NCBI RefSeq assembly: GCF_017983445.1
Contig: NZ_JAGOBJ010000006.1
Coordinates: 117,485-181,484 of the forward strand
Direction of reading: 5' to 3'
DNA: 64,000 bases
Source of the DNA: Halomonas sp.
GTDB lineage: Bacteria; Pseudomonadota; Gammaproteobacteria; Pseudomonadales; Halomonadaceae
The notes under the pieces are model-generated. The model saw nothing but the letters and a program-made list of their open reading frames with translations. It searched no databases and had not been told where the DNA came from. How positions within the stretch are numbered: the first letter of the stretch is position 1; each line of letters begins with the position of its first letter. Of this stretch, positions 29,982 through 52,425 are shown piece after piece. The position numbers and the translations under genes were made by a program.

Positions 29982-30231
29982 ATCCCCCTCCCCCACTAAG
30001 CTTGTTTGATCCGCATCCCAGCGCTATTGAAAGAGATCATCCGTATCAACATAGAAATACCCATCCTGTTTCCAAATAATGACGAGCAATGTATGAATAT
30101 TGGCAACTTTATTAGTCGCACCGATCTTAATGTCCACTTAAAGCCGAAGTTGCCACACTAGTGTCGAGCATAATTTTTTATATCCCTAGGCTCAGGCGTC
30201 TGCTTTATGAAGCTTTTGTATCGTCCAAATG

Positions 30232-37455: not shown

Positions 37456-39459
37456 ATGGCAAAAAGTACGGCAGGTTATACATCAGCTGGCATTGGCAAA
37501 ATAGACACGCTTCCCGCTCTGCTGTCTGAATTTAGCCACTTCTCACGCCTGCGGCCACTACAAAAAAAACCAGACGCCGTCATTGGTTGGGGACTGAAAC
37601 CAACAAGCCTTAACGCAAGGCGTTATGCCAAGCGTAACCAGTTACCTTATATCGCCCTGGAAGACGGCTTTTTGCGTTCACTTGGCCTTGGAGTGGAAGG
37701 ATTTCAAGCACATAGCGTGGTAGTTGACCACACCGGCATCTATTACGATGCCTCGCGGCCCTCGGATCTCGAAAACTGGTTAAATACCGCTACTTTTACA
37801 CAGGATGAACTTCATCAGGCAGAGCGATGTATCAAGCAACTCATCCGCTATCGTCTGTCAAAATATAATCATGCTCCAGACTTCGTAATAGACCACTCGC
37901 CCCAGCCAAGGGTGTTAGTGGTTGACCAAACCGCAGGCGATGCCTCGATTGGATTTGGCGGTGCAAGCGCCGAAAGCTTCCAACACATGCTGGAAACGGC
38001 GCTGAGCGACCACCCAGACGCTGAAATCCTTGTCAAGATACATCCTGACGTCATTGCCGGTAAAAAACAGGGGCATCTGCTCAGCGCGCAAGATCACCCA
38101 CGCTGCCGTGTGGTTAGTGAAAACATTAACCCCTGGGCACTATTTGATCAGGTGGATAGCGTTTATGTCGTCACCAGCCAGCTAGGTTTTGAAGCCTTGC
38201 TGGCTGGCAAACGCGTTCACTGTTTTGGCCTGCCCTTCTATGCCAGCTGGGGACTGACTCAGGATCAAATCTCCTGCTCGAGGCGGCGTACAAAGCGGTC
38301 GCTTCACGAAGTATTTGCGGCCGCTTATTTGCGCTATACGCGCTACGCCAACCCCTATACGTTAAAGTCCGCCACGCTAGAAGAAACGATCGCGCTGATT
38401 GCTGACCAAAAGCGCCAGCAGGAACGGCTGCGCGGGGAGTGGTTGGCGTGCGGATTCTCATCCTGGAAGCGGCGCTTTATTCATCATTTTATGGGAAGCG
38501 CGGCGCAGCTGACCTATCAGGCAACGCTTCCTGACAAACCGCCTGCGCAAAAGCTTTTAGTATGGTCTAGCCGGATTGATCATGATTTTGAGCAGCAGCA
38601 CACAGCGCTTATGCCGCATATATGGCGAATAGAGGATGGGTTTATCCGCTCAGTGGGTTTGGGCGTTGATCTTACCCAGCCCCTTTCGCTAGTGATTGAC
38701 GCCCAGGGCATTTATTACGACCCGAGCCAACCAAGTGACCTGGAAACGCTGCTCCAGCACACGACGTTTAACGACGATCTGCTTGAGCGAGCAGCGCAGT
38801 TGCGAGAACGCCTGGTGGCATTGAAGCTTTCAAAATATAACGTCCGCGGGCACAGCTCTATCGATTTGCCGTATAATACGCGGATAATTCTGGTACCTGG
38901 CCAAGTCGAGAGCGATGCATCCATTGCCATGGGGTCACCGCAGATACGTACCAATAGCGCGTTGTTGAACGCGGTACGTACGGCCAATCCTGACGCCTAT
39001 ATTATCTATAAAGCACATCCTGATGTGATTAGCGGCGCGCGCATAGGGGCACTCGAACCCGATGCCCAACGCCTGTATGATCTGGATGCCAGCCACATGG
39101 ATATCGCAACGTTACTAGAGCGCGTCGATGCGGTTCATACCATGAGCTCATTAACGGGGTTTGAGGCACTATTACGCCACCGAGAAGTCGTAACCTACGG
39201 CATGCCGTTTTACGCCGGCTGGGGATTAACGCAGGACGCCATGCGCTGCGAGCGCCGTTCGCGTCATTTATCGCTCGATGCACTGGTGGCAGGCACATTA
39301 ATCCTTTACCCGTGTTATGTAGACCCGTCAAGCCGTCAGCTCTGTAACGCTGAAACCGTCGTTAGTCTTTTAGAACAGGCAAGAGCACACCAGCCGACGC
39401 TGACATGGAAGCAGCGTCTCTACCGGCTTTACCGCAATTTATTGATTGGAAGACATTGA
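37456..39459 (+). CDS. kpsC: Capsule polysaccharide beta-Kdo transferase KpsC
   Basis: KpsC adds alternating beta-Kdo residues of the linker between the phospholipid and group 2 capsule. The 667 residues contain two related halves, each with the IALEDGFLRSLGLGV / WRIEDGFIRSVGLGVD block, a GIYYDxSxPSDLE motif, LSKYN, a QxxxDASIxxG motif and KxHPDVIxG, matching the two GT domains of KpsC. First gene of the operon; its stop lies just before the kpsS start. ATG 37456 has a weak ribosome site. Confidence 0.95.
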   Translation: MAKSTAGYTSAGIGKIDTLPALLSEFSHFSRLRPLQKKPDAVIGWGLKPTSLNARRYAKRNQLPYIALEDGFLRSLGLGVEGFQAHSVVVDHTGIYYDASRPSDLENWLNTATFTQDELHQAERCIKQLIRYRLSKYNHAPDFVIDHSPQPRVLVVDQTAGDASIGFGGASAESFQHMLETALSDHPDAEILVKIHPDVIAGKKQGHLLSAQDHPRCRVVSENINPWALFDQVDSVYVVTSQLGFEALLAGKRVHCFGLPFYASWGLTQDQISCSRRRTKRSLHEVFAAAYLRYTRYANPYTLKSATLEETIALIADQKRQQERLRGEWLACGFSSWKRRFIHHFMGSAAQLTYQATLPDKPPAQKLLVWSSRIDHDFEQQHTALMPHIWRIEDGFIRSVGLGVDLTQPLSLVIDAQGIYYDPSQPSDLETLLQHTTFNDDLLERAAQLRERLVALKLSKYNVRGHSSIDLPYNTRIILVPGQVESDASIAMGSPQIRTNSALLNAVRTANPDAYIIYKAHPDVISGARIGALEPDAQRLYDLDASHMDIATLLERVDAVHTMSSLTGFEALLRHREVVTYGMPFYAGWGLTQDAMRCERRSRHLSLDALVAGTLILYPCYVDPSSRQLCNAETVVSLLEQARAHQPTLTWKQRLYRLYRNLLIGRH

Positions 39460-39460
39460 G

Positions 39461-40696
39461 TTGAAGCAAAAGCGCGCATTCTTATTCTTACAAGGGGTCT
39501 GCTCGCCCTTCTATCAGCGCTTGGCACGTCGGCTTTCTGACGATGGCCACCGCGTGGTGAAGGTCAACTTCAACGCAGGCGATATTGCCTACTGGCAAAA
39601 AACACATAGTGAAAACCATTTATTTCGCGCCCCATTAAGTGAACTGCCGGCCTATATCGAATCGCTCTGGCAGCGCTATGCGATTACGGATCAGGTAATG
39701 TTTGGCGACCGTCGGCCGATTCATCGGCCTGCAGTGGATAATGCCCAAAAGGCTGGCGTGCGCACCCATGTGTTTGAAGAGGGCTACTTTCGTCCTTTCT
39801 GGGTAACGCTTGAGCGCGATGGTGTTAACGGCCATTCGCTTTTACCCCGTGATCCTCAATGGTTTTATGAAACGGGTAAAGCGCTGCCTGAAATGCCCCC
39901 ACCCGTGCGCTTTCGTTCATCGTTCAAGATCCGCGCCATGCACGATGTTGCCTATCATCTGGCGGGGTTAGCCAACCCATTGGTGGCGCCGCATTATCGT
40001 AACCATGCGCCCATTACGGCGCCGGTCGAGTACGCCGGTTATCTCAAGCGCTTTACGCTGTTGAAGCAGTGGAAAAAGCAGGATGCCCAGCGTATTAAAA
40101 CGTTGATTGAAAGCGCTAAGCCCTACTTTATATTGCCGCTTCAGCTTAATACGGATGCCCAGATCCGTGATCACTCGCCGTATGCCAACATGCAGGAAGT
40201 GATGGATCATGTCATGGGATCGTTTGCCGAGCATGCGCCAAGCGATGCGCTGCTGTGCATTAAAAACCATCCGCTGGATATGGGGCTGGTGAACTACTCA
40301 AGAATCATCAAGCAGCTGGCTCAGTTTTATGGCCTGCAAGAGCGAATCGTCTATTTGGAGTCAGGCAATTTAGACACGCTTATCAAACACGCCGTGGGTA
40401 CCGTCACGGTTAACAGCACCGTCGGGTTTGTTTCTCTGGAAAAGCAGTGCCCTACCTTTGCGTTGAGCGACCCGATCTACAACCTCGCCGGGCTTACCTA
40501 TGAAGGAAGCCTGGACGAGTTCTGGAATCAGCCGCCCAAGCCGAGCCTGGAGCTGTTTACCTATTTCCGCAACACGGTGATGCATACCGTGCAGGTCAAC
40601 GGCGGTTTCTATTGCCAGCCCAGCATTGATCTGGCCGTCAATAATGCAGCCCACATACTGGAAGCCTGCCCATCGCCGCTGGAGAAACTACTGTGA
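39461..40696 (+). CDS. kpsS: Capsule polysaccharide beta-Kdo transferase KpsS (RkpJ-like)
   Basis: KpsS adds the first Kdo to lyso-phosphatidylglycerol in group 2 capsules. The 411-residue product shows AFLFLQGVCSPFYQRLARRL at the start, MFGDRRPIHRPAV, THVFEEGYFRPFWVTLE and CIKNHPLDMGLVNYSRII. The start is probably TTG 39461, immediately after the kpsC stop and preceded by GGAAG; TTG 39446, inside kpsC, would add five residues. The C-terminus overlaps the next gene by 4 bp. Confidence 0.92.
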   Translation: MKQKRAFLFLQGVCSPFYQRLARRLSDDGHRVVKVNFNAGDIAYWQKTHSENHLFRAPLSELPAYIESLWQRYAITDQVMFGDRRPIHRPAVDNAQKAGVRTHVFEEGYFRPFWVTLERDGVNGHSLLPRDPQWFYETGKALPEMPPPVRFRSSFKIRAMHDVAYHLAGLANPLVAPHYRNHAPITAPVEYAGYLKRFTLLKQWKKQDAQRIKTLIESAKPYFILPLQLNTDAQIRDHSPYANMQEVMDHVMGSFAEHAPSDALLCIKNHPLDMGLVNYSRIIKQLAQFYGLQERIVYLESGNLDTLIKHAVGTVTVNSTVGFVSLEKQCPTFALSDPIYNLAGLTYEGSLDEFWNQPPKPSLELFTYFRNTVMHTVQVNGGFYCQPSIDLAVNNAAHILEACPSPLEKLL

Positions 40697-41499
40697 GTGC
40701 TGCATTGAACCCCGTAACCCAGCGCTGCGTACTGATTACCGGAGCAACGGGCGCCATTGGCGGTGCGCTGGCAAAAGCCTACGCCAATCAGCACACCCAT
40801 TTAGTGCTGCATGGTCGGCAGCAAGAGGTGCTCTCGGCCCTGGCCGATACCTGCCGCGAACAGGGTGCGCAAGTGACCACTGCCTCGGTCAATCTTACTG
40901 ATGAGGCAGCGCTTGCGCAGTGGCTTCACGGCCTTTGTACAGAGCACCTGCCGGATATCGTGATAGCTACCGCGGGTAAAAACACCCACCCCCAAGCATC
41001 AGGAGCACTCGAACCCTGGAGTGACGTACAGACGCTGTTGGATATCAACCTGAAAACGCCGATCGCCATGGCTCAGCACCTGGTACCCGCGATGCAGGCA
41101 CGCGGCAGCGGCCAGCTGGTATTTATCAGCTCGCTTGCCGGGTGGCACGGCCTGCCTAGCACCCCCACTTATAGCGCTAGCAAAGCAGGCATTAAAGCTT
41201 ACGGTGAAGGTCTGCGCGGTCTGCTGGCCCCTTACGGTATCGGTGTGACCGTGGTAATGCCTGGCTATGTAACGTCGCCCATGTGCAATGCCATGCCCGG
41301 CCCCAAGCCGTTCGAATGGCCTCCTGAGCGAGCCGCCAAGGTGATCAAGCGCGGCATCGAGGCTAACCGGGCGCGCATCAGCTTTCCTTTTCCGCTTAAT
41401 TTCGGCACCTGGTGGCTGGCGGTACTTCCCGCCGGTATTTCCCAGTGGTTAATCAAGCGCCTGGGGTTTGATCATCTCGACCACCCAGGAGGTGCCTGA
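40693..41499 (+). CDS. Short-chain dehydrogenase/reductase, RkpH-like
   Basis: A 268-residue classical SDR: Rossmann motif TGATGAIGGALAKAYA, NAG-region variant ATAGKNTH, catalytic Ser (SSLAGWHGLPSTPTYSASKAG) with Tyr-x-x-x-Lys in YSASK, and VMPGYVTSPM. The start is GTG 40693, overlapping the kpsS stop (GTGA). In the rhizobial rkp-1 region RkpH occupies the same place; together with the oxoamine synthase downstream it may reduce a 3-keto intermediate, as 3-ketosphinganine reductase does (inference). Confidence 0.87.
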   Translation: MSAALNPVTQRCVLITGATGAIGGALAKAYANQHTHLVLHGRQQEVLSALADTCREQGAQVTTASVNLTDEAALAQWLHGLCTEHLPDIVIATAGKNTHPQASGALEPWSDVQTLLDINLKTPIAMAQHLVPAMQARGSGQLVFISSLAGWHGLPSTPTYSASKAGIKAYGEGLRGLLAPYGIGVTVVMPGYVTSPMCNAMPGPKPFEWPPERAAKVIKRGIEANRARISFPFPLNFGTWWLAVLPAGISQWLIKRLGFDHLDHPGGA

Positions 41500-41500
41500 C

Positions 41501-43159
41501 ATGGCCACCTCACTGTCTATTCAGCTGCTATGGCCATTATTGATTGGACTGCTGGGAACGATCATTTTTGAAGCGCTGCTTAACCCGCGCCCTCGCCCGT
41601 TTTGGCGACGTGGCCTGGCTGCCAACAGCGTGCACCTGGGCAGCTGGTTATTGCTGTTTGGGGCATTTGTTTTAGTGCTTCAACGGCCTTGGTTTGCGGT
41701 GATTTTTATTCTTTCACTACAGTTGGTCGTCGTGCAGTCCAGCAATACCAAATCACGCACGCTGAACGAGCCGTTTATTTGCCACGATTTTGAATACTTC
41801 TGGGATGCTATCCTCCACCCACGCCTTTATGTACCCTTTTTTGGAACAGGCCTTGCCATCGCCGCGATTGGTGCAGGAGCGGCCGCTATCGGGGCGTTTC
41901 TTTACTGGGAGCCTTCGCTGGTGTCGCGCTGGAGTGGGCAAGGCTTTATCACCTGCTGCTTATTGTTAAGCGTGTCAGGCGCACTGCTGGTTACGTCAGG
42001 TTGGCGGGCGCTAGCGCCGGTTACGCTGAACCCTGTTGATGACATGAATCGCCTGGGATTATTCGCAAGCCTCTGGGCTTACGGCATTGCACTAATGCGT
42101 TCCTCCGCGCCTGCACCGGAACAATCGCCGTTTTATCAGTTAGCCCATCATCTGAAAGAAGAGCACCGGGCATCGTTATCATCTGAGGCCTCGTCTGAAA
42201 CGCGGCCCAATGTCGTGTTGGTACAAAGCGAATCGTTTTTCGACCCGCGGCCCTGGTATACGGATGTCAGCGACAGCTTACTGACGCATTTTGATACGAC
42301 GCGTAAACAAGCCTTACAGCAGGGTGAGCTAAGCGTGCCCGCCTGGGGTGCCAATACCGTGCGCACCGAATGCGCGGTGCTTACCGGGCTTTCACCCAGC
42401 GCCTGGGGGCCACGTCAATTCAACCCCTATCGCACGCTGTCACGCCATCCGCTTCCCAGCCTTGCGAGCACATTTAAGACAGCGGGCTATCGCACGGTGT
42501 GTATTCACCCCTACCCCGCCAGCTTTTATATGCGTCACAAGGTAATCCCCCAGTTAGGGTTTGATCAGTTCATCGATATCGGTAGTTTTGAGAGTAGCGA
42601 TAAGCAAGGCCAGTACATTGGCGACTTGGCCGTGGCACGAAAGGTTGGACGACTGCTTGAAGATAGCGATAATAGACCGCTTTTCGTGTTCGTGATTACC
42701 ATGGAAAACCATGGCCCGCTACACTTGGAAGCACCTCATCAGGAAAGTGTAGCGGCTGCGCTGCCCACGGCACCCTGGCCACTGCCCACGCACTTACGCG
42801 ATTTATCTGTGTATTTGCGCCATTTGGGTGAGGCCGACAAAATGCTGGCCCATGTAAAAGATGCTTTAAATGAGGCTAAAAGGCCGGGGCTGCTAGGCTG
42901 GTATGGTGACCATGTACCGATTTTACCGGCAGCGTATGAATATTTCTCACCGCCTACGGGTCATACACCTTACATGATATGGTCAACACAATTGCCCAGT
43001 CAGTCGCAGGTACCACCATGCGATAGAGCACAAAACCCGCATGAGTCGTACGCGCTGTCAGCTAACGAGCTTGGCGTCCAGCTATTTAAACAAGCGTTTG
43101 GACACGATATAAGTAGCGATGTGATCAAGGCAGAACCAGAACCTCAGGAGCAAGAATGA
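41501..43159 (+). CDS. LTA synthase-like, sulfatase-fold membrane enzyme (RkpI-like)
   Basis: The 552-residue product has about five N-terminal helices (to about residue 200) and an alkaline-phosphatase/sulfatase-fold domain (about 225-530) with VVLVQSESFFDPR (metal-binding Glu), a WGANTVRTECAVLTGLSP block holding the nucleophile Thr, FVFVITMENHGPLH and LLGWYGDHVP. Members transfer phosphoglycerol, phosphoethanolamine or similar groups at the periplasmic face. ATG 41501 follows AGGAGG, one base after the SDR stop; its own stop overlaps the PKS start (ATGA). A role in decorating the capsule or its lipid is inferred. Confidence 0.86.
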   Translation: MATSLSIQLLWPLLIGLLGTIIFEALLNPRPRPFWRRGLAANSVHLGSWLLLFGAFVLVLQRPWFAVIFILSLQLVVVQSSNTKSRTLNEPFICHDFEYFWDAILHPRLYVPFFGTGLAIAAIGAGAAAIGAFLYWEPSLVSRWSGQGFITCCLLLSVSGALLVTSGWRALAPVTLNPVDDMNRLGLFASLWAYGIALMRSSAPAPEQSPFYQLAHHLKEEHRASLSSEASSETRPNVVLVQSESFFDPRPWYTDVSDSLLTHFDTTRKQALQQGELSVPAWGANTVRTECAVLTGLSPSAWGPRQFNPYRTLSRHPLPSLASTFKTAGYRTVCIHPYPASFYMRHKVIPQLGFDQFIDIGSFESSDKQGQYIGDLAVARKVGRLLEDSDNRPLFVFVITMENHGPLHLEAPHQESVAAALPTAPWPLPTHLRDLSVYLRHLGEADKMLAHVKDALNEAKRPGLLGWYGDHVPILPAAYEYFSPPTGHTPYMIWSTQLPSQSQVPPCDRAQNPHESYALSANELGVQLFKQAFGHDISSDVIKAEPEPQEQE

Positions 43160-46100
43160 CTAAACGCGTTGCCATTATCGGCGCCGCCCATCGTTTCCCC
43201 GGCACCACCCCTGAAACGTTCTGGCAGGACCTGCAAGCCGAGAAAGATTTAGTTACCCAAGTGGCGCCTGACCGCTGGAGCCATGACGCTTTCTGGCACC
43301 CGGACAAACGTCATCCCGGTACCAGCGTCACGTTTGCCGCGGGTAGCCTGGGTGATATCAGTGGGTTCGATGCCGAGTTCTTTGGCATTTCGCCCCGCGA
43401 AGCAGCCAATATGGACCCGCAGCAGCGCATGCTGCTGGAGCTTGCCTGGGAAGCCATGGAAAGCGCTGGCATCGTGCCCAGCAGCCTGAGAGGCAGCCAG
43501 TGTGGCGTGTTCCTGGGCGTTGCCAGTCTTGATTACTCGTACCGTATGGCTGATGACATGGCGGCCATTGATGCCTCCACCGCCACGGGCAACACGTCCA
43601 GCATTGCCTCAAACCGTCTGTCTTACGTGTTTGACCTGCACGGCCCCAGCATGTCGTTAGATACGGCCTGTTCATCGTCCATGGTCGCGTTTCACCAAGC
43701 CTGCCAATCCATCCGCAGCGGTGAAACCAACATGGCGCTGGCTGGCGGTATCAGTCTTCACCTGCACCCTTACGGTTTTATTATTTTCTCCAAGGCGAGC
43801 ATGCTGTCGCCGACCGGTCGCTGCCAGGTGTTCGATGAATCGGGCAACGGCTACGTACGCTCTGAAGGCGCAGGGCTTTTCCTGCTCAAGGACTACGACC
43901 AGGCCATCGCCGACGGCGACAATATTCTGGCAGTAGTGGCGGGTTCGGCGGTAAATACCGATGGTCATAAATCGGGCATCACGGTACCCAACCCCAGCGC
44001 GCAGACTGACCTCATGCGCCGCGCCTACGCGCAGGCAGGCATCAGCCCCGACGAGATCGACTACCTGGAAGCCCACGGTACGGGCACCGCTGTGGGTGAT
44101 CCTATTGAAACCCGCGCCATTGGCGAAGCCTTGGGCAAACATCGTCAAACGCCGCTGTTGATCGGCTCTATTAAAAGCAACATCGGCCACCTGGAAACCG
44201 CGTCAGGGGTCGCCGGTCTTGCCAAAGCACTTTACAGCTTGCAGCACCGCGAAGTGCCCGCCACCATCGGTATTCGCAAGCTTAATCCGCGTATCAAATT
44301 TGATGAGTGGAACCTGCATGTCGTTACCCAGGCGCAGCCTCTGAAAAAGGAGGGTCGCTTAGTCATCGGGATTAACTCGTTTGGCTTTGGCGGCGCTAAC
44401 GCCCACGTCATTTTGGAAAGTGCACCTGAAAAATCATCAGCACCTAGCCAAGCGCCCGCACCTGCTCACGCCTTGCCTATCCGGCTAAGTGCCAAAAGTC
44501 AGGAAGCGCTTACGGCGACAGCCCAAAATTTCGCGGCGCACTTTACCACCAGCGCTGATCAAGACGGCGCTAATAAAGACAGCAATGCGTTTTACGATAT
44601 TGCCCATACGCTGTTCCATCATCGTGAACAGCATGCATTTGGTGCGCTCTGCTTTGCGAAAACCCCAGAAGAGGCAGCCGCGGCGCTGAACCAGTACGCC
44701 GAGGGGGATACCACAAGCGTTACCACCCTGGAGCGGCTAACCAATGCTCGCGGGCCTGTGTTTGTGTATGACGGTAACGGCTGCCAGTGGGAAACCATGG
44801 GCCGCGACCTTCTTGATACGGCTCCGGTATTCGCGGAAGCCATCGACCGCGTGGACGCCCTGTTCCAGCAGTACGGTGATTTCTCACTACGCGCCGAGCT
44901 TGGCGGTCAAAATGGCGAGAACCGCTTTGAGCTTACCGAAATTGCCCAGCCCGCTCTGTTTGCGCTGCAAGTAGCCTTAACCGAATGGTTGAAAGCGCAG
45001 GGCGTCATGCCGGCAGCGGTATTTGGGCACAGCGTTGGCGAAGTCGCCGCCGCCTGGGCGGCGGGCGCGTTAAGTCTTGAAGACGCGGTAAAAGTGATCT
45101 ACTACCGCAGCTTTTATCAAGGCAAAACCCGGGGCATGGGTGGAATGACCGCGGTTGCCATGAGTGCCGAGGACATTGCTCCATGGCTTGCCAAGCCAGA
45201 ATTCAACCAGGTATGTCTGGCCGGTATCAACAGCCCCAAAGGGATTACGCTTGCCGGTGAGAACAACCAACTCACCGCACTTGAAGCAGCGTTAAGCGAG
45301 CAAAGCACGTTTGCCAAGCGCCTGCCGCTGGATTACGCCTTCCACAGCCCGGCCATGGACAGCATCCAAAGCGGCGTGATTGAGGCCTTAAGCACGATTA
45401 CGCCACGTGAGACGCAGCTCCCCTATTACTCGACCGTCACCGGTGAACTCAGCCAAGGCAGTGCATTAGGTGCTACCTATTGGTGGGAAAACATTCGCGA
45501 ACCAGTTCTATTCGATAACGCCGCGACAGCGCTAATCAAGCAGGGTTATAACGTTTTCGTAGAGATTGGCGCTCACCCCATTCTGCGTCGCTATCTCAAT
45601 GAATCATTACGCCAGCAGGAGCGTACCGGGCTGATGATTGGTACGATCGAGCGCCATAAGCCCGGTCTTGAAAAACTCCAGCAAAGCGTTAGCCAGCTGC
45701 TGTTAAGCGGGCTTTCGTTTGATATGCAGCACACCTTCCCCGTGGAAGGCCAGCGCGTATTGTTGCCGCGCTACACATGGCAGCGTACACGCCATTGGGT
45801 CAACAGTACTGAAGACGGCCAGGGCCTGCTTTCCCGCTACTACCAGCATCCGTTGCTGGGTTACCCGCTCGCGCAGCAGGAGCACACCTGGGAAAGCCAG
45901 CTGGACACCAAACGCCAGCCCTGGCTTGCCGATCACGTGGTAGGCGAAGGCGCCGTATTCCCGGGGGCTGGCTTTGTTGAATTAACTTTGGCGGCCGCGT
46001 TACAGCAGAAAGACACCCCGCTTTTAGATATCGAAGAGCTGGAAATTCGTGCGCCGTTACTGTTGGATGGCCCCAATGGCCGCACCCTGCGCTTATCGCT

Positions 46101-49100
46101 TAACCCGGATGATGGGCGCATCGCCATTCACTCCCGCGAGCCTGCCACCGGCGTTGAGTGGCAGTTGAACGCAGTAGCACGCAACATGCACGAAAGCCGC
46201 GGTTTTCTACTCAACCGTCAGGCGCCAGCACTGCCTACGCGCGCGCCGGATTACACCCTGTCGGATCACTTACACATGGCTGAGCGCATCGGCCTGCATT
46301 ACGGCCCCGCGTTCCAGGCGATCAGCCATGGCTGGATCGAAGATAACGCCGTGATCGGCGCGATTGATTTATCCAGCGACGTTCAGGCACAGCTATCGAC
46401 GCTTCACGTGCACCCAGGCATTCTGGATAGCGCTTTCCAGATGTTTATTCCGCTACTGGCACAGCACAGCGAATTTGCTTCTCAGCTTGCGTTTGTTCCC
46501 GTTCGCGTAGGCCGTATACAGGTCAATACCCAGGCCGGTACGCCGGTACTTGCCCGCGCAGTGATGGGCAAGCGTGCGCCCCACTCGTTTACCGCTGATT
46601 TTGAGCTTTACGATGCCTCAGGTAACGCCGTTGCCGTGCTTAGCCAGACGCGCTTCAAGGCGATACGTTTAAACCGTGCCCATCACCAGCAGTTTAGCTA
46701 CCTGGACGTTGAGCTTACGCCAGCGCCGCTTAGCTCTTCGCCGCTTCCCCTGCCTGCCGAGGCACTGAGCCGCTTGGCAGGACTGAGTGATTATTACGCT
46801 GCGCATACCGGCCAACGTTACGCTCAGGAAGTCGCCCCATTACTGGATAGCTTAAGTGAAGCGTTTGGCCAGCAAGGCTTTACCGTTGAGGGTAACGAAG
46901 AAGCGCTGGCGCCTGAAACGATCTGGCAACTGCTGGTACAGGACTACCCCGACTATTTTGCACCGATTCATCTGGTAGGCAGGCTCGGCCTGCACCGTCA
47001 GGCGCTGCAAAATGGCTCTACTCAGCTAGATACGCTGGGCATTTCGACAGAGCATCTGGCAAGGCTTAACCGCGTGCTGGTAGGCGAAAGCGGCTGGCAG
47101 GCGCTTGCCAGCGAACTGGGCAGTTTGATGGAAGCATCGCTTGGCGCCCTAGGGTCAAGCGAGCGCTTACAGCTGCTTGAAGCTGGCCCATGCGCCCCGG
47201 CGCTGGGACAACGCCTTCTCGAACAGCTGGCGGGCTCACCGCTAACAGATAATCATCACTACCGGGTGATCACCACGCATGACAGCGCACGCCACCAGGC
47301 CGAACAGCTGCAAGAGCGTTACCCGCTGATTGATGTGCAGTCGTTGGATGATGCGCCACCGACCCTGGCAAATGCGGAAAAAGCCCAGCTAGCCTTTATC
47401 AGTACGGATGTCACCCAGCCTGCCCGCACACGCCAGTTGATCGAAGCCCTACCTGCGCAGCTAGCGCCCGGGGCGCATATCATGGTGGTGGGCGTTGCCC
47501 CCAGCCGCTGGCTAGACGACGTGCTAGCCACACCAGGGATCGATCAAACGGCTCTGGAATCCGCTACGGTAAGCGAGTGGCTAAGCGCCCAAGGGTTTAG
47601 CGTTTCAGCCCCTATCGAGCTTGAAGAAAGTGATACCGGCGCATACCTGCTGCATGCCCAAATGCCCGAACTGGTACAGGCACAGGCAGCGGCAAGCAGC
47701 GTGAGTGCTTCTTGCCAGCTAATCGTGACCGATGAGGCCAATCAAGCGTTGGCGGCGCGCCTTGCCAACGCGCTTAACGCGCGTCAGGCAAGCGTGATCG
47801 TTGAACAAAGCGACGGCTTGCCCAGTGAGCTGCTACAGAAGTCGCTGGATAAATGGGGTGAAGCGCTCCAAACGCTGAATGTGATTGACCTGCACGATCT
47901 TGGTAACACCGGCACCGCCATGCAAACGCTACGCTGCCACCGCGCTCAGCAGTGGAGCCTGGCTCTGGAAACTGCTGAACTTGCCTCGGCAACGCTATGG
48001 TTGACCACTCAGGGCGTTAGCGTGCTGTGGCAGTCGCAAAACGCGCACACGAACGTGCCTGATGATGCTGCACTCTGGGGCTTTGGCCGCTCGCTTGCCA
48101 ATGAAGCCGTTGGGCATACGGCTAGTCTGCTGGATATCCCCTATGACGTTAGCGACGCTGCGCTAAGCGCATGGGTCGAGTCACTGACCGCGCCGGATAA
48201 CGAAAACGAAGTAGTCATCAATGCTCGCGGTGAGCGCTTTGCCACCCGTCTACGCACCTTGCCAGCACCGGCGCCTCAACAAACCGCTGATACCGGAGCT
48301 TCTGCACGGCAGGCGATGACCTTAGGCTTTGCCCTGCCCGGCCAGTTGCGCCAGCTTCAGTGGCGCCCGCGTGAGCTGCCCGCGCTCAAGGCCGATGACG
48401 TTGAAATCAAGGTAAAAGCCACGGGGCTTAACTTCCGTGATGTAATGTACACCCTCGGCCTGCTGTCTGATGAAGCAATCGAGAACGGTTTTGCCGGGCC
48501 AACGCTGGGCCTTGAGTTTTCCGGTGAAGTCGTCGCTGTCGGTGATAACGTTACTCACGTAGCCCCCGGTCAAGCCGTGGTTGGCTTTGGTCCGGCAAGC
48601 TTCAGTGACCGACTGATTGCCAGCCAGCACGCGGTGGCGCCATTGCCGGAAGGCGTAAGCTACGCTGCTGCCGCAACTATTCCCACCACGTTCTTTACCG
48701 TGTACTACGCGCTAAAACACCTGGCTCGCCTGGAGCCGGGCGAGAAAGTCCTGATTCATGGTGCAGCGGGCGGCGTGGGTATTGCCGCGCTGCAAATTGC
48801 CCAGTGGCTAGGTGCGGAAATTTACGCCACGGTAGGTTCTGAAGAGAAGCGTGACTTCTTACGCCTGATGGGCGTTGAGCGCCTTTATGACTCCCGCTCG
48901 CTCACCTTTGCAGAAGAGATCCTTGAAGATACCCAGGGGGAAGGTGTCGATATCGTGCTGAACTCGCTTGCCGGGGAAGCCATCAACCAGAACCTGCGCG
49001 CCCTGCGCCCCTTTGGTCGATTCCTGGAACTGGGTAAACGCGATTTTTATGAAAATACGCATATCGGCCTGCGCCCGTTCCGTAACAACTTGAGCTACTT

Positions 49101-50538
49101 CGGTATCGACTCCGACCAGCTGATGAAGGTGCAGCCCGCGCTTACCCAGCGTTTGTTTGGGGAAATGATGGCGCTGTTCAACGACGGCACGCTCAGCCCG
49201 CTACCGTTTACCGCGTTCAGCCATAGCCAGGTGATCGACGCCTTCCGCTATATGCAGCAGGCGCGTCAGATCGGTAAAGTCGTTGTTACCTATGAGCAGC
49301 CCATTGCGCCGCCCAAAAATGAAGCGCTTGGTCGTGAAACGCTGAGCCTTCCAGACGATGGCAGCTATCTGGTGACCGGCGGCCTGGGCGGGTTCGGTCT
49401 TAAAACCGCTCAGTGGCTGGTGAGTAAAGGCGCTCGCCAACTGATTCTGCTTAGTCGCAGCGGCCCTTCCAGTGATGAGGCTCAAGCCGCTATCGCCGAA
49501 TTCGATGCCCAAGGCGTCAAGGTGATGGCCGCTGCCTGCGACATTACCGACCGCGATGCGCTGGCAAGCGTCCTGGCACGTGCCAAGGATGAGCTTGGCC
49601 CGCTGCGTGGTATCGTGCACGCCGCCACGGTGATTGACGACGGTTTGATTCGTAACCTGGATGCCGAGCGTATTCACAAGGTATTAACGCCCAAGATGGA
49701 AGGGGCCCGCCACCTGGATGCTTTAACACGGGGCGAGCCGTTGGATTTCTTTATCCTCTACTCGTCAGCGACCACGCTATTCGGCAACCCAGGCCAAGCC
49801 AATTACGTGGCCGCCAACCACTGGCTCGAAGCGTTTGCGGCCAACCGTCGAGCTGCGGGTCTTCCCGCGACCTGTGTACGCTGGGGCGCGATTGAAGATG
49901 TCGGCTTCCTGGCCCGCAATACACGTACGCGTGATGCGCTGCAAGAGCGTTTAGGCGGCTCTGCCCTGCGCTCTGATGATGCGCTCAACGTGCTTGAACA
50001 AATGCTGGCAACCCCTGGGCCAAGCCTTGGCGTACTGGAGCTTGAGTGGGGAGCACTGGCGCGCTTCTTGCCGACGGCCAATGCGCCGCGCTTTAACGAG
50101 ATAGCCCGCGCCAGTGACGACGATAACAGTCACGAAAGTGATGATGATATCAGCGCCCTGCTTGCCGATCTTTCACCGGAAGAGCTTCACACCACGGTGA
50201 CAGAGCTACTTCGGGCAGAGCTTGCCAGTATCCTGCTGATCGAAGAGGAGAAGATTGACGTTAATCGCTCGGTCTACGATATGGGCTTTGACTCGTTGAT
50301 GGGCGTTGAGCTGATGACCGCAATTGAAAACCGCCTGGGCGTCCAGGTGCCGGTCATGGTACTCAGCGAAGCCTCAACGCTTAACAAGCTTGCCGGCGTG
50401 CTGATTAAAAAGCTCCAGCAGCATGACGATGATGTTGAAGAAGCACCGCAAGATGCGTTAGCCTCTCTCGCCGCTCGCCACGGGGCTGACGGGCTCTCTG
50501 AGTCTGCCTCAACATCATCGACGACCGAGACACCATGA
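43156..50538 (+). CDS. rkpA: Single-module reducing type I polyketide synthase (RkpA-like) without thioesterase
   Basis: The 2460-residue enzyme has KS (1-430; Cys172 in DTACSSS, His307, His345), AT (about 535-850; Ser626 in GHSVGE), DH (about 890-1180; His927, Asp1091), a ~400-residue region with a wrecked methyltransferase motif (LEAGPCAPALG near 1345), ER (about 1715-2045; LIHGAAGGVGIAAL), KR (about 2065-2250; TGGLGGFGLKTA, Tyr2217) and ACP (about 2350-2430; Ser2380 in GFDSLMG). All domains for full reduction appear active, so it should build a saturated acyl chain iteratively. No thioesterase follows; the next gene, an alpha-oxoamine synthase, is the probable off-loader. The rhizobial counterpart is RkpA. 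Confidence 0.93.
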   Translation: MTKRVAIIGAAHRFPGTTPETFWQDLQAEKDLVTQVAPDRWSHDAFWHPDKRHPGTSVTFAAGSLGDISGFDAEFFGISPREAANMDPQQRMLLELAWEAMESAGIVPSSLRGSQCGVFLGVASLDYSYRMADDMAAIDASTATGNTSSIASNRLSYVFDLHGPSMSLDTACSSSMVAFHQACQSIRSGETNMALAGGISLHLHPYGFIIFSKASMLSPTGRCQVFDESGNGYVRSEGAGLFLLKDYDQAIADGDNILAVVAGSAVNTDGHKSGITVPNPSAQTDLMRRAYAQAGISPDEIDYLEAHGTGTAVGDPIETRAIGEALGKHRQTPLLIGSIKSNIGHLETASGVAGLAKALYSLQHREVPATIGIRKLNPRIKFDEWNLHVVTQAQPLKKEGRLVIGINSFGFGGANAHVILESAPEKSSAPSQAPAPAHALPIRLSAKSQEALTATAQNFAAHFTTSADQDGANKDSNAFYDIAHTLFHHREQHAFGALCFAKTPEEAAAALNQYAEGDTTSVTTLERLTNARGPVFVYDGNGCQWETMGRDLLDTAPVFAEAIDRVDALFQQYGDFSLRAELGGQNGENRFELTEIAQPALFALQVALTEWLKAQGVMPAAVFGHSVGEVAAAWAAGALSLEDAVKVIYYRSFYQGKTRGMGGMTAVAMSAEDIAPWLAKPEFNQVCLAGINSPKGITLAGENNQLTALEAALSEQSTFAKRLPLDYAFHSPAMDSIQSGVIEALSTITPRETQLPYYSTVTGELSQGSALGATYWWENIREPVLFDNAATALIKQGYNVFVEIGAHPILRRYLNESLRQQERTGLMIGTIERHKPGLEKLQQSVSQLLLSGLSFDMQHTFPVEGQRVLLPRYTWQRTRHWVNSTEDGQGLLSRYYQHPLLGYPLAQQEHTWESQLDTKRQPWLADHVVGEGAVFPGAGFVELTLAAALQQKDTPLLDIEELEIRAPLLLDGPNGRTLRLSLNPDDGRIAIHSREPATGVEWQLNAVARNMHESRGFLLNRQAPALPTRAPDYTLSDHLHMAERIGLHYGPAFQAISHGWIEDNAVIGAIDLSSDVQAQLSTLHVHPGILDSAFQMFIPLLAQHSEFASQLAFVPVRVGRIQVNTQAGTPVLARAVMGKRAPHSFTADFELYDASGNAVAVLSQTRFKAIRLNRAHHQQFSYLDVELTPAPLSSSPLPLPAEALSRLAGLSDYYAAHTGQRYAQEVAPLLDSLSEAFGQQGFTVEGNEEALAPETIWQLLVQDYPDYFAPIHLVGRLGLHRQALQNGSTQLDTLGISTEHLARLNRVLVGESGWQALASELGSLMEASLGALGSSERLQLLEAGPCAPALGQRLLEQLAGSPLTDNHHYRVITTHDSARHQAEQLQERYPLIDVQSLDDAPPTLANAEKAQLAFISTDVTQPARTRQLIEALPAQLAPGAHIMVVGVAPSRWLDDVLATPGIDQTALESATVSEWLSAQGFSVSAPIELEESDTGAYLLHAQMPELVQAQAAASSVSASCQLIVTDEANQALAARLANALNARQASVIVEQSDGLPSELLQKSLDKWGEALQTLNVIDLHDLGNTGTAMQTLRCHRAQQWSLALETAELASATLWLTTQGVSVLWQSQNAHTNVPDDAALWGFGRSLANEAVGHTASLLDIPYDVSDAALSAWVESLTAPDNENEVVINARGERFATRLRTLPAPAPQQTADTGASARQAMTLGFALPGQLRQLQWRPRELPALKADDVEIKVKATGLNFRDVMYTLGLLSDEAIENGFAGPTLGLEFSGEVVAVGDNVTHVAPGQAVVGFGPASFSDRLIASQHAVAPLPEGVSYAAAATIPTTFFTVYYALKHLARLEPGEKVLIHGAAGGVGIAALQIAQWLGAEIYATVGSEEKRDFLRLMGVERLYDSRSLTFAEEILEDTQGEGVDIVLNSLAGEAINQNLRALRPFGRFLELGKRDFYENTHIGLRPFRNNLSYFGIDSDQLMKVQPALTQRLFGEMMALFNDGTLSPLPFTAFSHSQVIDAFRYMQQARQIGKVVVTYEQPIAPPKNEALGRETLSLPDDGSYLVTGGLGGFGLKTAQWLVSKGARQLILLSRSGPSSDEAQAAIAEFDAQGVKVMAAACDITDRDALASVLARAKDELGPLRGIVHAATVIDDGLIRNLDAERIHKVLTPKMEGARHLDALTRGEPLDFFILYSSATTLFGNPGQANYVAANHWLEAFAANRRAAGLPATCVRWGAIEDVGFLARNTRTRDALQERLGGSALRSDDALNVLEQMLATPGPSLGVLELEWGALARFLPTANAPRFNEIARASDDDNSHESDDDISALLADLSPEELHTTVTELLRAELASILLIEEEKIDVNRSVYDMGFDSLMGVELMTAIENRLGVQVPVMVLSEASTLNKLAGVLIKKLQQHDDDVEEAPQDALASLAARHGADGLSESASTSSTTETP

Positions 50539-51875
50539 CCGCCAAGCGCTCTGATTTGAAACGGCAGCTGTTGGAACAGGCACGTAAACGTACTACGTCG
50601 CGTGCCACTCCCCATGCTGCCAGCCCCTCACCGGGCCACAATACATCTTCAAACCCGGTGCCCGAGCGCTTTACGCGATTTGATGCCCACCCTGGCTATC
50701 AGCAGCTCGCCATGCTGCGCCAGGGCGCCGAACAGCTGGGGTTGAAAGACCCCTTCTTTAAGGTGCATGAAGGAATCGCCGGCGCGACCAGCGTTATTCA
50801 AGGGCAACCCTGCATCAATTTCGCAAGCTATAACTACCTTGGCTATTCAGGCGACCCGCGGGTTAACCAAGCGGCCAGCGATGCGGTGGCTCGCTACGGC
50901 ACGTCGGTATCAGCCAGCCGGGTGGTCTCTGGTGAGCGACCGATTCACCGCGAGCTTGAGCAGGCTATCGCCAAGGCTTATCAAGTCGATGATGCGGTTG
51001 CGTTTGTCAGCGGGCATGCCACTAACGTTTCAACGCTTGGCTATCTGCTGGGGCCGAAAGACCTCGTGCTCCACGATGAGTATATTCACAACAGCTCGTT
51101 GGTGGGCGCGCAGCTTTCCGGTGCCAAACGGATGTCATTTGCGCATAACGATCCCGACGCGCTAGATGCGCTGCTTGGCCGCCATCGCCATCAGTTTGAA
51201 CGGGTGATCGTGGTCATCGAAGGGCTTTACAGCATGGATGGCGACATCCCTGATCTGCCGCGCTTTATCGAGCTTAAAAAGCGCCACCAGGTATGGCTGA
51301 TGGTCGACGAAGCGCACTCCTTCGGCGTTATGGGCGATAACGGCCTGGGGCTTCACGAGTACTTTTCCATCGACCCGCGTGATGTCGATATCTGGATGGG
51401 CACCATGAGCAAAACGCTCTCCGGATGTGGCGGTTATATTGCGGGCAATAAAGCCCTGGTAGAAACGCTGCGCTACTTTGCGCCGGGCTTTTTATACAGC
51501 GTGGGAATGCCTGCCCAAGTGGCGGCGCCCTCCATCAAAGTGCTTGAGCTGATGCAACAGGAGCCTGAGCGGGTGGAGAAACTCCACACCATTTCACGCT
51601 ACTTCCTGCAGCAGGCCAAAAAACACGGCATGGATACCGGCCATAGCATTGGTGCTGCCGTGGTACCCATTATTGTCGGCAGCTCGCCATTGGCGGCGCA
51701 TCTTTCCCATACGCTGCTTGAGCAATACCACATCAACGTGCAGCCGATCCTGCATCCGGCCGTGCCTGAAAAGAGCGCCCGGCTGCGGTTCTTCCTATCC
51801 TATGCTCACACTCAGGAGCATATCGATCACACGTTAGATGCCCTTGCCACACTGCTTGGCCAAGCCAGAAGCTAA
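50535..51875 (+). CDS. Alpha-oxoamine synthase (AONS/SPT-like, RkpG-like)
   Basis: A 446-residue fold-type I PLP enzyme: NFASYNYLGYSGDPRV, GTSVSASRVVSGERPIH, LVGAQLSGAKRMSF, MVDEAHSFGVMGDNG and Lys293 in GTMSKTLSGCGGYIAG (PLP Schiff base). The family condenses an acyl thioester with an amino acid and decarboxylates it (BioF, serine palmitoyltransferase, Kbl). It overlaps the PKS by 4 bp, and there is no biotin gene nearby, so a PKS-bound acyl chain is the likely substrate, as with Fum8 in fumonisin synthesis. The rhizobial counterpart is RkpG. Confidence 0.9.
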   Translation: MTAKRSDLKRQLLEQARKRTTSRATPHAASPSPGHNTSSNPVPERFTRFDAHPGYQQLAMLRQGAEQLGLKDPFFKVHEGIAGATSVIQGQPCINFASYNYLGYSGDPRVNQAASDAVARYGTSVSASRVVSGERPIHRELEQAIAKAYQVDDAVAFVSGHATNVSTLGYLLGPKDLVLHDEYIHNSSLVGAQLSGAKRMSFAHNDPDALDALLGRHRHQFERVIVVIEGLYSMDGDIPDLPRFIELKKRHQVWLMVDEAHSFGVMGDNGLGLHEYFSIDPRDVDIWMGTMSKTLSGCGGYIAGNKALVETLRYFAPGFLYSVGMPAQVAAPSIKVLELMQQEPERVEKLHTISRYFLQQAKKHGMDTGHSIGAAVVPIIVGSSPLAAHLSHTLLEQYHINVQPILHPAVPEKSARLRFFLSYAHTQEHIDHTLDALATLLGQARS

Positions 51876-51879
51876 CTAT

Positions 51880-52425
51880 ATGGAACCCCCTAATACAGCG
51901 CTAAATGATACAGCGCCCGGCAGCGAAGAAGACGCGTCATCCAGTTGGTACGTCATTCAATGTAAAGGCAGCGAATCATTTCGCGCCGCCGAGCACCTCA
52001 CTAATCAAGGTTATGAGGTGTTTCATCCGGTGCTGGACGTCAAGCGCAAGCGTCAAGGCAAGCTTGCCACCGTGACCGAGCCTCTATTCCCCTACTATCT
52101 GTTTATTCGCCTCGACCAGGTAGTGAGCAATTGGCGACCCATTCGCTCGACAAGGGGCGTGCTGCGCCTACTCACCTTTGGCAATAACCCCGTAAGCGTT
52201 CCCAGTGCACTAGTAGAGACACTTCGCGCCCAGCCCCACCGCCAGGAAGGCAGCCACACCTACTTCAGCGCGGGTGAAAAGGTCACCATTACCGAAGGCC
52301 CTTTCAAGGACCTGGAAGCCATCTTCGAGCGCTGCAAAGGCGAAGAGCGCGCCATTGTGCTGCTCAACGTACTCCAGCGGCCTCAGCATCTTAATGTGCC
52401 GCTGGATCAGTTGCGCAAGTGGTGA
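51880..52425 (+). CDS. rfaH: RfaH-like NusG-family transcription antiterminator
   Basis: The 181-residue protein has an NGN domain (residues about 16-115; SWYVIQCKGSESFRAAEHL, EPLFPYYLFIRLD, RSTRGVLRLLTFG) and a KOW domain (about 128-175; FSAGEKVTITEGPFKDLEAIF). RfaH-type factors let RNA polymerase read through long, poorly translated surface-polysaccharide operons. It begins 4 bp after the oxoamine synthase and ends the operon, so it may act on the same long transcript. ATG 51880 is the first credible start; the in-frame codon 14 triplets earlier lies in the preceding gene. Confidence 0.88.
   Translation: MEPPNTALNDTAPGSEEDASSSWYVIQCKGSESFRAAEHLTNQGYEVFHPVLDVKRKRQGKLATVTEPLFPYYLFIRLDQVVSNWRPIRSTRGVLRLLTFGNNPVSVPSALVETLRAQPHRQEGSHTYFSAGEKVTITEGPFKDLEAIFERCKGEERAIVLLNVLQRPQHLNVPLDQLRKW

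Follow-up and report, generated by a model that had tools for sequence, protein, structure and literature searches.

The Sinorhizobium rkp-1 region (rkpA, rkpG, rkpH, rkpI, and rkpJ) holds in one cluster genes of the polyketide or fatty acid synthase (PKS/FAS), alpha-oxoamine synthase (AOS), SDR, sulfatase-fold, and KpsS types. Studies of rhizobial rkp-1 mutants report that these genes are needed for capsule production, and the accessible text of the papers concerned terms the product a lipophilic molecule or a lipid carrier (PMC3557214, PMC4881576); to judge from the dates in their reference lists, the identity of this lipid has been a standing question since the 1990s. In Cobetia, the equivalent wcb genes lie downstream of kpsSC and are named for lipid carrier biosynthesis, and WcbQ and WcbR have already been named in Halomonas piscis (PMC11766843, PMC10752968); reports of the cassette cover symbionts, marine bacteria, and a pathogen. 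Two further systems bear on the chemistry: in E. coli K5, it is the glycerol of (lyso-)phosphatidylglycerol that bears the first Kdo (PMC7694667), and in a bacterial sphingolipid operon encoding a serine palmitoyltransferase (SPT), an ACP, and an acyl-ACP synthetase, the AOS is supplied by an ACP and its product is then reduced (PMC9386255).

The 64,000-nucleotide stretch of Halomonas sp. DNA analyzed here (the window) contains an operon of the rkp-1/wcb type, which probably makes a lipid devoted to a capsule of the ABC-transporter-dependent (Kps) kind (Table 1). Directly visible are its gene content and order (kpsC-kpsS-SDR-sulfatase-PKS-AOS-rfaH, all on the plus strand, positions 37456 to 52425), intact catalytic motifs, and the family membership of the products. 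Pfam and NCBIfam profiles recovered at their coordinates, on the plus strand, all of the genes named in the preliminary description of this DNA, which had also placed the AOS after the PKS with a 4-bp overlap; the overlap is present (50535 to 50538), but the SDR gene does not directly precede the PKS, as had been implied, because the sulfatase gene sits between the two. The seventh gene of the operon, rfaH, was absent from that reasoning.

Table 1. Genes of the operon, with positions in the window, profile matches, and predicted roles.
Gene or product	Coordinates	Strand	Profile match	Predicted role or counterpart
kpsC	37456..39459	+	PF05159, three stretches, E 1.1e-94	Dual-module beta-Kdo transferase, capsule linker
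kpsS	39446..40696	+	PF05159, E 2.1e-83; NF050054 (KpsS), 280 bits, below the cutoff of 600	First Kdo transferase, RkpJ counterpart
SDR	40693..41499	+	PF00106, E 9.7e-36	WcbP/RkpH counterpart, candidate 3-oxo amine reductase
Membrane sulfatase-fold enzyme	41468..43159 (longest ORF; ATG at 41501 likelier)	+	PF00884	WcbQ/RkpI counterpart, putative phosphoglycerol transferase
Iterative fully reducing type I PKS	43156..50538	+	Pfam domains, without thioesterase	WcbR/RkpA counterpart
AOS	50535..51875	+	PF00155	WcbT/RkpG counterpart, candidate off-loading enzyme
rfaH	51838..52425	+	TIGR01955, 171.6 bits, above the cutoff of 144.5	Operon-specific antiterminator

The same cassette occurs in capsule loci of Pseudomonas, Sinorhizobium meliloti, Caballeronia, and Shinella. 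The parallel with rkp-1 that had been drawn beforehand is sound and central to the interpretation, both clusters uniting PKS, AOS, SDR, sulfatase-fold, and KpsS-type genes, but the novelty claimed for the group is not: the lipid carrier operon was published for Cobetia (PMC11766843) and WcbQ and WcbR for Halomonas piscis (PMC10752968), and the window operon is an additional member of a type already named there, whose chemistry the accessible text of those papers leaves unsettled. Locus L030 of S. meliloti Ak57 has the rkp-1 gene order, from which that of the window differs. Identities to L030 are 50% for the AOS, 38% for KpsS, 36% and 43% (in two pieces) for the PKS, and 28% over 437 amino acids (E 4e-34) for WcbQ; those to a second relative, L029, are 57% for the AOS, 51% for the SDR, 49% over 2,539 aligned positions for the PKS, and 45% for WcbQ. 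The SDR is 37% and 26% identical to those of L031 and L033, respectively, and just 21 to 24% identical to those of S. meliloti (21%) and Shinella; a tblastn search with the window SDR at 1e-5 did not match the S. meliloti SDR. In gene content as published, the wcbPQRT operon of Burkholderia and Cobetia has the same four genes, whereas the window cassette is joined by overlaps to kpsC/kpsS and to rfaH. Loci L031 and L082 carry an additional LpxC-family deacetylase, and a capsule locus of Acidisoma, in which no PKS was found, combines an AOS, an SDR, a fatty-acid hydroxylase, an LTA-synthase-like protein, and two PF05159 proteins. In a survey of neighboring genes, for which 78 of the 140 neighbor ORFs listed were scanned, export and sugar functions dominated the 25 families listed out of 71; a lipid A acyltransferase family occurred in 2, and member 1 had LpxC.

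The domain order of the PKS is KS-AT-DH-(degenerate MT-like region)-ER-KR-ACP, with no Pfam match to a thioesterase, and the KS, HGTGT, AT, KR, and ACP motifs are retained in 69 of 69 aligned PKSs. C-methylation by the window enzyme is unlikely, since no methyltransferase family matched residues 1171 to 1746, even at an E value of 5, and the motif-I stretch is degenerate; relatives may vary, and the 40 motif-I variants listed for the 69 PKSs are mostly degenerate, with a few glycine-rich stretches retained. Of 54 full-length named loci with a related AOS, 53 have a PKS upstream of it in the same orientation, indicating that the pairing is not due to chance, although these loci were selected by the presence of the AOS and the count therefore signifies that the AOS keeps its PKS and not that the PKS keeps its AOS. 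Even so qualified, the pairing argues against a special fatty acid or ketone carrier as the PKS product, with an amino group that has no role in attachment and a Kdo linker built on phosphatidylglycerol. We regard this alternative as unlikely: it accommodates the presence of both KpsC and KpsS and the published naming of the product, in the available text, as nothing more specific than a lipid carrier or a lipophilic molecule (PMC3557214, PMC4881576), but not the presence of SPT in genomes where WcbQ adjoins KpsS without the cassette.

Among the matches listed, the AOS falls below the cutoffs of all 12 NCBIfam models, including those for BioF (321 bits; cutoff, 426), Kbl (283 of 460 for PRK06939 and 237 of 493 for TIGR01822), and SPT (275, 269, and 196; cutoffs, 640, 500, and 670). 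Its closest PDB entry, 3a2b, is a serine palmitoyltransferase. Phylogenetically, it belongs to its own clade, apart from BioF, Kbl, and SPT; a group of 31 rows (support 91/94, unstarred) comprises 29 WcbT-type rows and two PKS-fused AOS rows. Because the AOS lies under the BioF, Kbl, and SPT cutoffs and in a separate clade, we dropped the reading, anticipated in the preliminary description, that it acts only as BioF or Kbl. That it is the cell's own BioF or Kbl, present in the operon by accident, is hardly credible, even with bioB in the genome and no second AOS found there: two genomes of the same genus (G002 and G036) lack a match to this AOS at an E value of ≤0.001, and in others a second match accompanies this AOS. 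No SPT match was found in the window genome at an E value of ≤1e-80. One AOS relative was seen among viral contigs, at the extreme end of a 43-kb contig.

Related AOS genes fused to parts of a PKS are present in plasmid records of Planktothrix and Streptomyces, where the stretch examined has no annotated capsule gene, and they raise the prospect of a cluster for a secreted secondary metabolite that adjoins capsule genes to which it is unrelated. This is very improbable given that the operon overlaps kpsC/kpsS and that, in a sample of 398 genomes of the phylum, PF05159 occurs in 15 of the 17 with a strong AOS match (at least 530 bits), as opposed to 65 of the 381 others.

Serine, alanine, and glycine are the candidate amino acid substrates of the AOS, among which the sequence cannot decide. 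Off-loading of a reducing PKS by an AOS, followed by reduction, is the scheme of fumonisin synthesis (Fum1, Fum8, and Fum13), a possible parallel in enzyme types that yields a fungal secondary metabolite and involves no capsule. Compared with the bacterial sphingolipid operon, the window has its own PKS for the chain, an AOS of a separate clade, and, as candidate reductase, an SDR in place of the epimerase-family gene seen beside three SPTs. A motif in the S. meliloti and Shinella SDRs is reminiscent of 3-ketosphinganine reductase, but the 60 top-ranking PDB matches and the top 25 from NCBIfam include no such enzyme, leaving that assignment as a lead only.

The closest solved structures to WcbQ are GacH, LtaP, and LtaS, of which GacH is the best match and GacH and LtaP are the nearest. 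Against the LtaS model, WcbQ scores 21 bits (cutoff, 970), and these comparisons place it in a fold related to LtaS, but not as LtaS itself, with phosphoglycerol transferases as its apparent nearest relatives. Residues E255, T297, H347, R356, H415, D481, and H482 are invariant in 22 of 22 aligned sequences, and the putative metal and glycerol-phosphate ligands, assigned as in LtaS, align with GacH and are likewise identical in all 22. By a crude method, hydropathy peaks fall within residues 12 to 177, corresponding to about four to five segments, and the sulfatase domain begins at 247. LtaS-family domains usually lie on the periplasmic side and KpsS and KpsC in the cytoplasm, so that an anchor lipid would need to be flipped.

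WcbQ might instead put glycerol phosphate on the polysaccharide and not on the lipid, as proposed for Cobetia, leaving the amino alcohol as anchor. GacH, its best structural relative, decorates a polysaccharide; moreover, 5 of the 17 strong-AOS genomes (G318, G220, G315, G069, and G222) have no WcbQ at an E value of ≤1e-10 with all candidates scored, two of which (G069 and G222) also lack PF05159. The Cobetia capsule carries phosphoglycerol, and the authors, in the text available, tie WcbQ to its transfer (PMC11766843). We nevertheless consider decoration doubtful, since WcbQ belongs to the lipid cassette in loci from alpha-, beta-, and gammaproteobacteria and tracks the AOS, being found at 270 bits or more in 12 of 17 strong-AOS genomes versus 2 of 381 others, or else tracks SPT. 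Because of the five genomes without it, a WcbQ head-group step cannot be universal, and we rejected any such requirement; near two WcbQ-less loci (L109 and L147) are sulfate-activation genes, perhaps denoting a different head group or sulfation of the capsule.

All 15 genomes with both PF05159 and WcbQ (at least 200 bits, as hereafter unless stated) have either a strong AOS (12 genomes) or SPT (G356, G369, and G379), and at any WcbQ score the proportion is 15 of 16, the exception being G360 (about 156 bits). Among the 65 PF05159 genomes without a strong AOS, SPT is present in all 3 that also have WcbQ and in 1 of the 62 that lack it (P = 9e-5). This pattern was selected after the data were seen and depends on the WcbQ cutoff: at 270 bits or more, the SPT cases shrink to two genomes from a single family (P = 0.003). 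In the three genomes, the SPT gene has an ACP gene and genes of the AMP-binding and epimerase families as neighbors. G356 and G379 encode another AOS (about 305 to 308 bits) away from the capsule genes, so SPT is not the sole possible source of an amino ketone in these two. A further 6 of the 21 genomes with WcbQ have no PF05159, strong AOS, or SPT. The co-occurrence of WcbQ and capsule Kdo transferases with an AOS or SPT points to a sphingoid-like product.

We therefore favor, with a probability of roughly one-half, a pathway in which the PKS would assemble an acyl chain, unbranched and saturated, on its ACP, and the AOS would off-load it by decarboxylative condensation with serine, alanine, or glycine, giving a 2-amino-3-ketone. 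The SDR would reduce this to a 2-amino-3-hydroxy lipid, either a sphingoid base or a 1-deoxy-sphingoid analogue, onto which WcbQ would move glycerol phosphate from phosphatidylglycerol, forming a lyso-phosphatidylglycerol look-alike. KpsS could then add the first Kdo to that glycerol and KpsC lengthen the linker, the lipid serving as the capsule anchor. An amino-alcohol lipid as capsule anchor or carrier, as originally proposed, remains the best reading of the cassette, capsule, and SPT gene comparisons, with the product itself a prediction. Among the open-access papers listed in literature searches, none linking the rkp/wcb lipid to sphingoid bases came up.

E. coli group 2 and 3 capsules, which end in (lyso-)phosphatidylglycerol, share the KpsS/KpsC Kdo linker and Kps export with the window but are not known to have such a lipid cassette. 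In a KpsS tree from which E. coli KpsS was left out, the window protein groups with those of other cassette-bearing loci, and the topology follows cassette presence and not class, with 15 cassette-less rows (from genomes without a strong AOS) on one side of a weak branch (36/81). Forcing gamma- and betaproteobacterial KpsS with and without the cassette together was rejected (approximately unbiased [AU] test, P = 7e-80) for a clade selected after the data were seen. More tentatively, the Kps capsules of Gram-negative bacteria may include a large class that rests on a sphingoid-type phosphoglycerol lipid instead of phosphatidylglycerol. The lipid would derive from the PKS-AOS-SDR cassette or from the cell's sphingolipid pathway, and in either case WcbQ would turn it into a lyso-phosphatidylglycerol look-alike accepted by the matching KpsS branch. 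If this is true, the generalization that Kps capsules end in a conserved phosphatidylglycerol gains a second branch, and sphingoid-like lipids occur in bacteria not reckoned as sphingolipid makers.

The capsule chain would leave through kps export genes about 50 kb from the operon. These share its contig but fall beyond the window; they comprise a kpsE homologue (G000:C1:218207), which at 280 bits does not reach the model cutoff of 437.5, and an OPX protein (C1:221454), adjoined by ABC transporter genes, with glycosyltransferase genes in between. RfaH would let RNA polymerase traverse the long operon, and rfaH adjoins the AOS gene in 20 of 20 loci (L009 to L028, L009 being the window itself). 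The RfaH ops element, GGCGGTAGC, has no perfect match anywhere in the window; one-mismatch matches number 38, against 23 expected, and this excess stems partly from a repeat array at 57.6 to 59.7 kb.

The gene set pointed out in the preliminary description, a PKS, an alpha-oxoamine synthase (AOS) and an SDR in a Kps capsule operon, was correctly observed: it belongs to a run of seven tightly packed genes (see the table), and 4 bp are common to the PKS and AOS genes. The PKS has KS, AT, DH, ER, KR and ACP domains and no match to a thioesterase; between DH and ER, where the domain search returned no recognised domain, lies a degenerate methyltransferase-like motif. The same contig continues beyond the window (C1:117485-181484 of a 3.9-Mb genome) with glycosyltransferases and export genes (for a kpsE homologue, an OPX protein and an ABC transporter), reaching to about C1:222 kb.

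Positions of the operon and of other features in the window and in related loci
Feature	Source	Position	Strand
kpsC, kpsS, SDR, sulfatase-fold protein, PKS, AOS, rfaH, in this order	window	37456-52425	+
UvrD-type helicase gene overlapping OLD-type TOPRIM ATPase gene by 4 bp	window	25816-29996	-
Protein with DUF4041 and T5orf172/MUG113 domains	window	31687-33327	-
Tandem array, 176-bp unit, 9.3 copies, 92% matches	window	58000-59626	
bioB	same genome (G000), contig C5	38955	
LpxC-family deacetylase gene between PKS and AOS	Caballeronia, L031	15018-15944	
LpxC-family deacetylase gene between PKS and AOS	Cupriavidus, L082	9217-9969	
AOS of the wider clade fused to PKS parts	Planktothrix plasmid record, L122	2602-10200	
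AOS of the wider clade fused to PKS parts	Streptomyces plasmid record, L032	8317-13140	
AOS, SDR, fatty-acid hydroxylase (PF04116), glycosyltransferases, two PF05159 proteins, LTA-synthase-like protein	Acidisoma plasmid capsule locus, L123	8025-18007	

Capsule loci in Pseudomonas, S. meliloti, Caballeronia and Shinella plasmid records also contain PKS, AOS, SDR and sulfatase-fold genes. In S. meliloti these follow the rkp-1 gene order, but the record (named pSymB, 3.72 Mb) lacks rkp names, so that the assignment of this locus rests on order and on passages of the literature (PMC7902896, PMC3557214, PMC4881576), in which the rkp-1 product is described as a lipophilic molecule, a lipid carrier or an anchor. 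Sections of two further reports name a wcbPQRT operon in Cobetia (PMC11766843) and, in Halomonas piscis, WcbQ and WcbR (PMC10752968), so the cassette is already known in the Halomonas group; its chemistry as proposed here is inferred throughout. The LpxC-family gene of the Caballeronia and Cupriavidus cassettes hints at a possible extra deacylation step in that lineage.

Matches to the AOS at E < 1e-200 were present in 25 of the 37 genomes of the genus (its own included), and in each of the 20 fetched loci L009 to L028 it lies between PKS and rfaH. The named scan confirmed at least 523 AOS relatives, the nearest among the matches listed being that of Vreelandella aquamarina (89%). PKS is present in 76 of the best 80 of these loci and, in 53 of the 54 that are full length, lies upstream of the AOS on the same strand. 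Of those 54 loci, 28 have a sulfatase-fold gene no more than 10 kb from the AOS, 23 an SDR, 18 KpsS and 13 KpsC; these counts are underestimates, since most of one flank is taken up by the PKS. All 69 aligned PKSs (the window and 68 others) retain the KS cysteine, HGTGT, the AT serine motif, the KR tyrosine motif and the ACP serine.

The best solved relative of the AOS is a serine palmitoyltransferase (SPT; 3a2b), and the AOS scores below the cut-off of all 12 NCBIfam models matched. In a 45-row tree, it falls in a 34-row clade (support 100/99) of 29 WcbT-type rows, fused Planktothrix and Streptomyces forms and a group of three Acidisoma-type rows, with SPT, Kbl and BioF rows outside; the deep split is weak (62/84), and BioF and one Bacteroidota row sit on long branches. 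The alignment contains the lysine, histidine and aspartate motifs that we take to form the PLP site. The tree, models and motifs do not reveal which amino acid the enzyme uses. No capsule gene is annotated in the fetched stretch of either fused form. A further AOS group (L149, L150 and L152; 300-320 bits) occurs in three genomes (G356, G379 and G446), all of which also have SPT. Neither the AOS search nor the surroundings of bioB revealed a bioF-like or kbl-like gene in the Halomonas genome, which may thus have a gap in biotin synthesis.

A sample of 398 genomes of the phylum was surveyed by scoring the first few candidates per genome. The AOS was found at E <= 1e-90 in 28 genomes, 17 of them strong (at least 530 bits; next score below, 464), PF05159 capsule proteins in 80, SPT (E <= 1e-80) in 37, and a WcbQ-like (sulfatase-fold) protein in 41 at E <= 1e-15, 21 at >=200 bits and 14 at >=270 bits. 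PF05159 accompanies the strong AOS in 15 of 17 genomes versus 65 of 381 others (P = 1e-9), and 18 of the 28 at E <= 1e-90; for WcbQ at >=270 bits the fractions are 12/17 and 2/381 (P = 2e-17). Both PF05159 and WcbQ (>=200 bits) occur in 15 genomes, 12 with strong AOS and three (G356, G369 and G379) with SPT, in which WcbQ and KpsS overlap or lie no more than about 1.2 kb apart; of the 21 genomes with WcbQ at >=200 bits, six have no PF05159, strong AOS or SPT. In a test prompted by the data, with about two independent lineages behind it, the 65 genomes with PF05159 but no strong AOS have SPT in 3/3 cases with WcbQ (>=200 bits) versus 1/62 without (P = 9e-5). At >=270 bits the fractions are 2/2 and 2/63 (P = 0.003; both, G356 and G379, of one family), and at any score 3/4 and 1/61 (P = 4e-4), the exception (G360) having a 156-bit WcbQ on a contig other than that of its best capsule gene.

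AMP-binding and epimerase genes surround the three SPTs, and a nearby ACP is Pfam-confirmed in two; G369 has only a weak small-ORF match to the PKS profile (27 bits). The Acidisoma locus lacks a PKS over the 19 kb retrieved. Our reading of this locus and the WcbQ/SPT survey is that a sphingoid base could stand in for the cassette product, which speaks for a sphingoid-like nature of that product. WcbQ could instead be fed in G356 and G379 by a second AOS (308 and 305 bits), which lies away from the capsule genes and in a clade adjoining the WcbT group. A further class sample of 289 genomes yielded WcbQ (E <= 1e-50) in seven, four already counted; of the other three, G484 and G611 carry the AOS cassette next to WcbQ, while the contig in G455 is, at 3 kb, too short to judge.

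Among solved structures, WcbQ comes nearest to GacH, a phosphoglycerol transferase (E = 2e-11), LtaP and LtaS, and all 22 sequences have identical residues at the positions aligned to the presumed site for metal and glycerol phosphate. Portions of published accounts state that E. coli KpsS acts on the glycerol moiety of (lyso-)PG (PMC7694667) and that KpsMT is thought to recognise a conserved lipid and/or Kdo part (PMC11041684). On these grounds we propose that WcbQ would place a phosphoglycerol head onto the amino alcohol. Its absence from 5 of the 17 strong-AOS genomes, three of these with PF05159, counts against this step, as does the membrane side expected for such an enzyme, which is wrong unless the lipid is flipped. 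WcbQ may be tied instead to glycerol phosphate on the polysaccharide itself, a connection made by the Cobetia authors in part of their report (PMC11766843). Among the Stappiaceae, cassettes L100, L109, L111, L113 and L147 have no WcbQ match: the first four have two KpsS copies each, L109 and L147 include nearby genes of the PAPS reductase family, for APS kinase or of the inositol-phosphatase family, and L147 (G315) and L111, whose contigs are equally long, are seemingly one and the same contig. 

The 44-row KpsS tree holds 26 cassette-linked rows (window and Acidisoma included), 15 cassette-less rows drawn from those 65 genomes that have PF05159 but no strong AOS, and three WcbQ-only rows. All 15 cassette-less rows lie on one side of a weak branch (36/81). 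Of the WcbQ-only rows, KpsS of G369 groups with that of Acidisoma (100/100); KpsS of G356 and of G379 groups with 13 cassette-linked rows (81/84, not starred). Forcing gamma- and betaproteobacterial KpsS without and with the cassette (7 and 14 rows, a group named once the tree had been seen) into one clade was rejected (AU test, P = 7e-80). This topology fits a capsule acceptor that may differ between the cassette-linked and cassette-less sets; the split could also represent two old capsule lineages.

Elsewhere in the window, no ORF of at least 150 aa is listed in the tandem array. The helicase and ATPase genes presumably resemble a Gabija-type phage defence pair, and the DUF4041 protein is encoded close to them.
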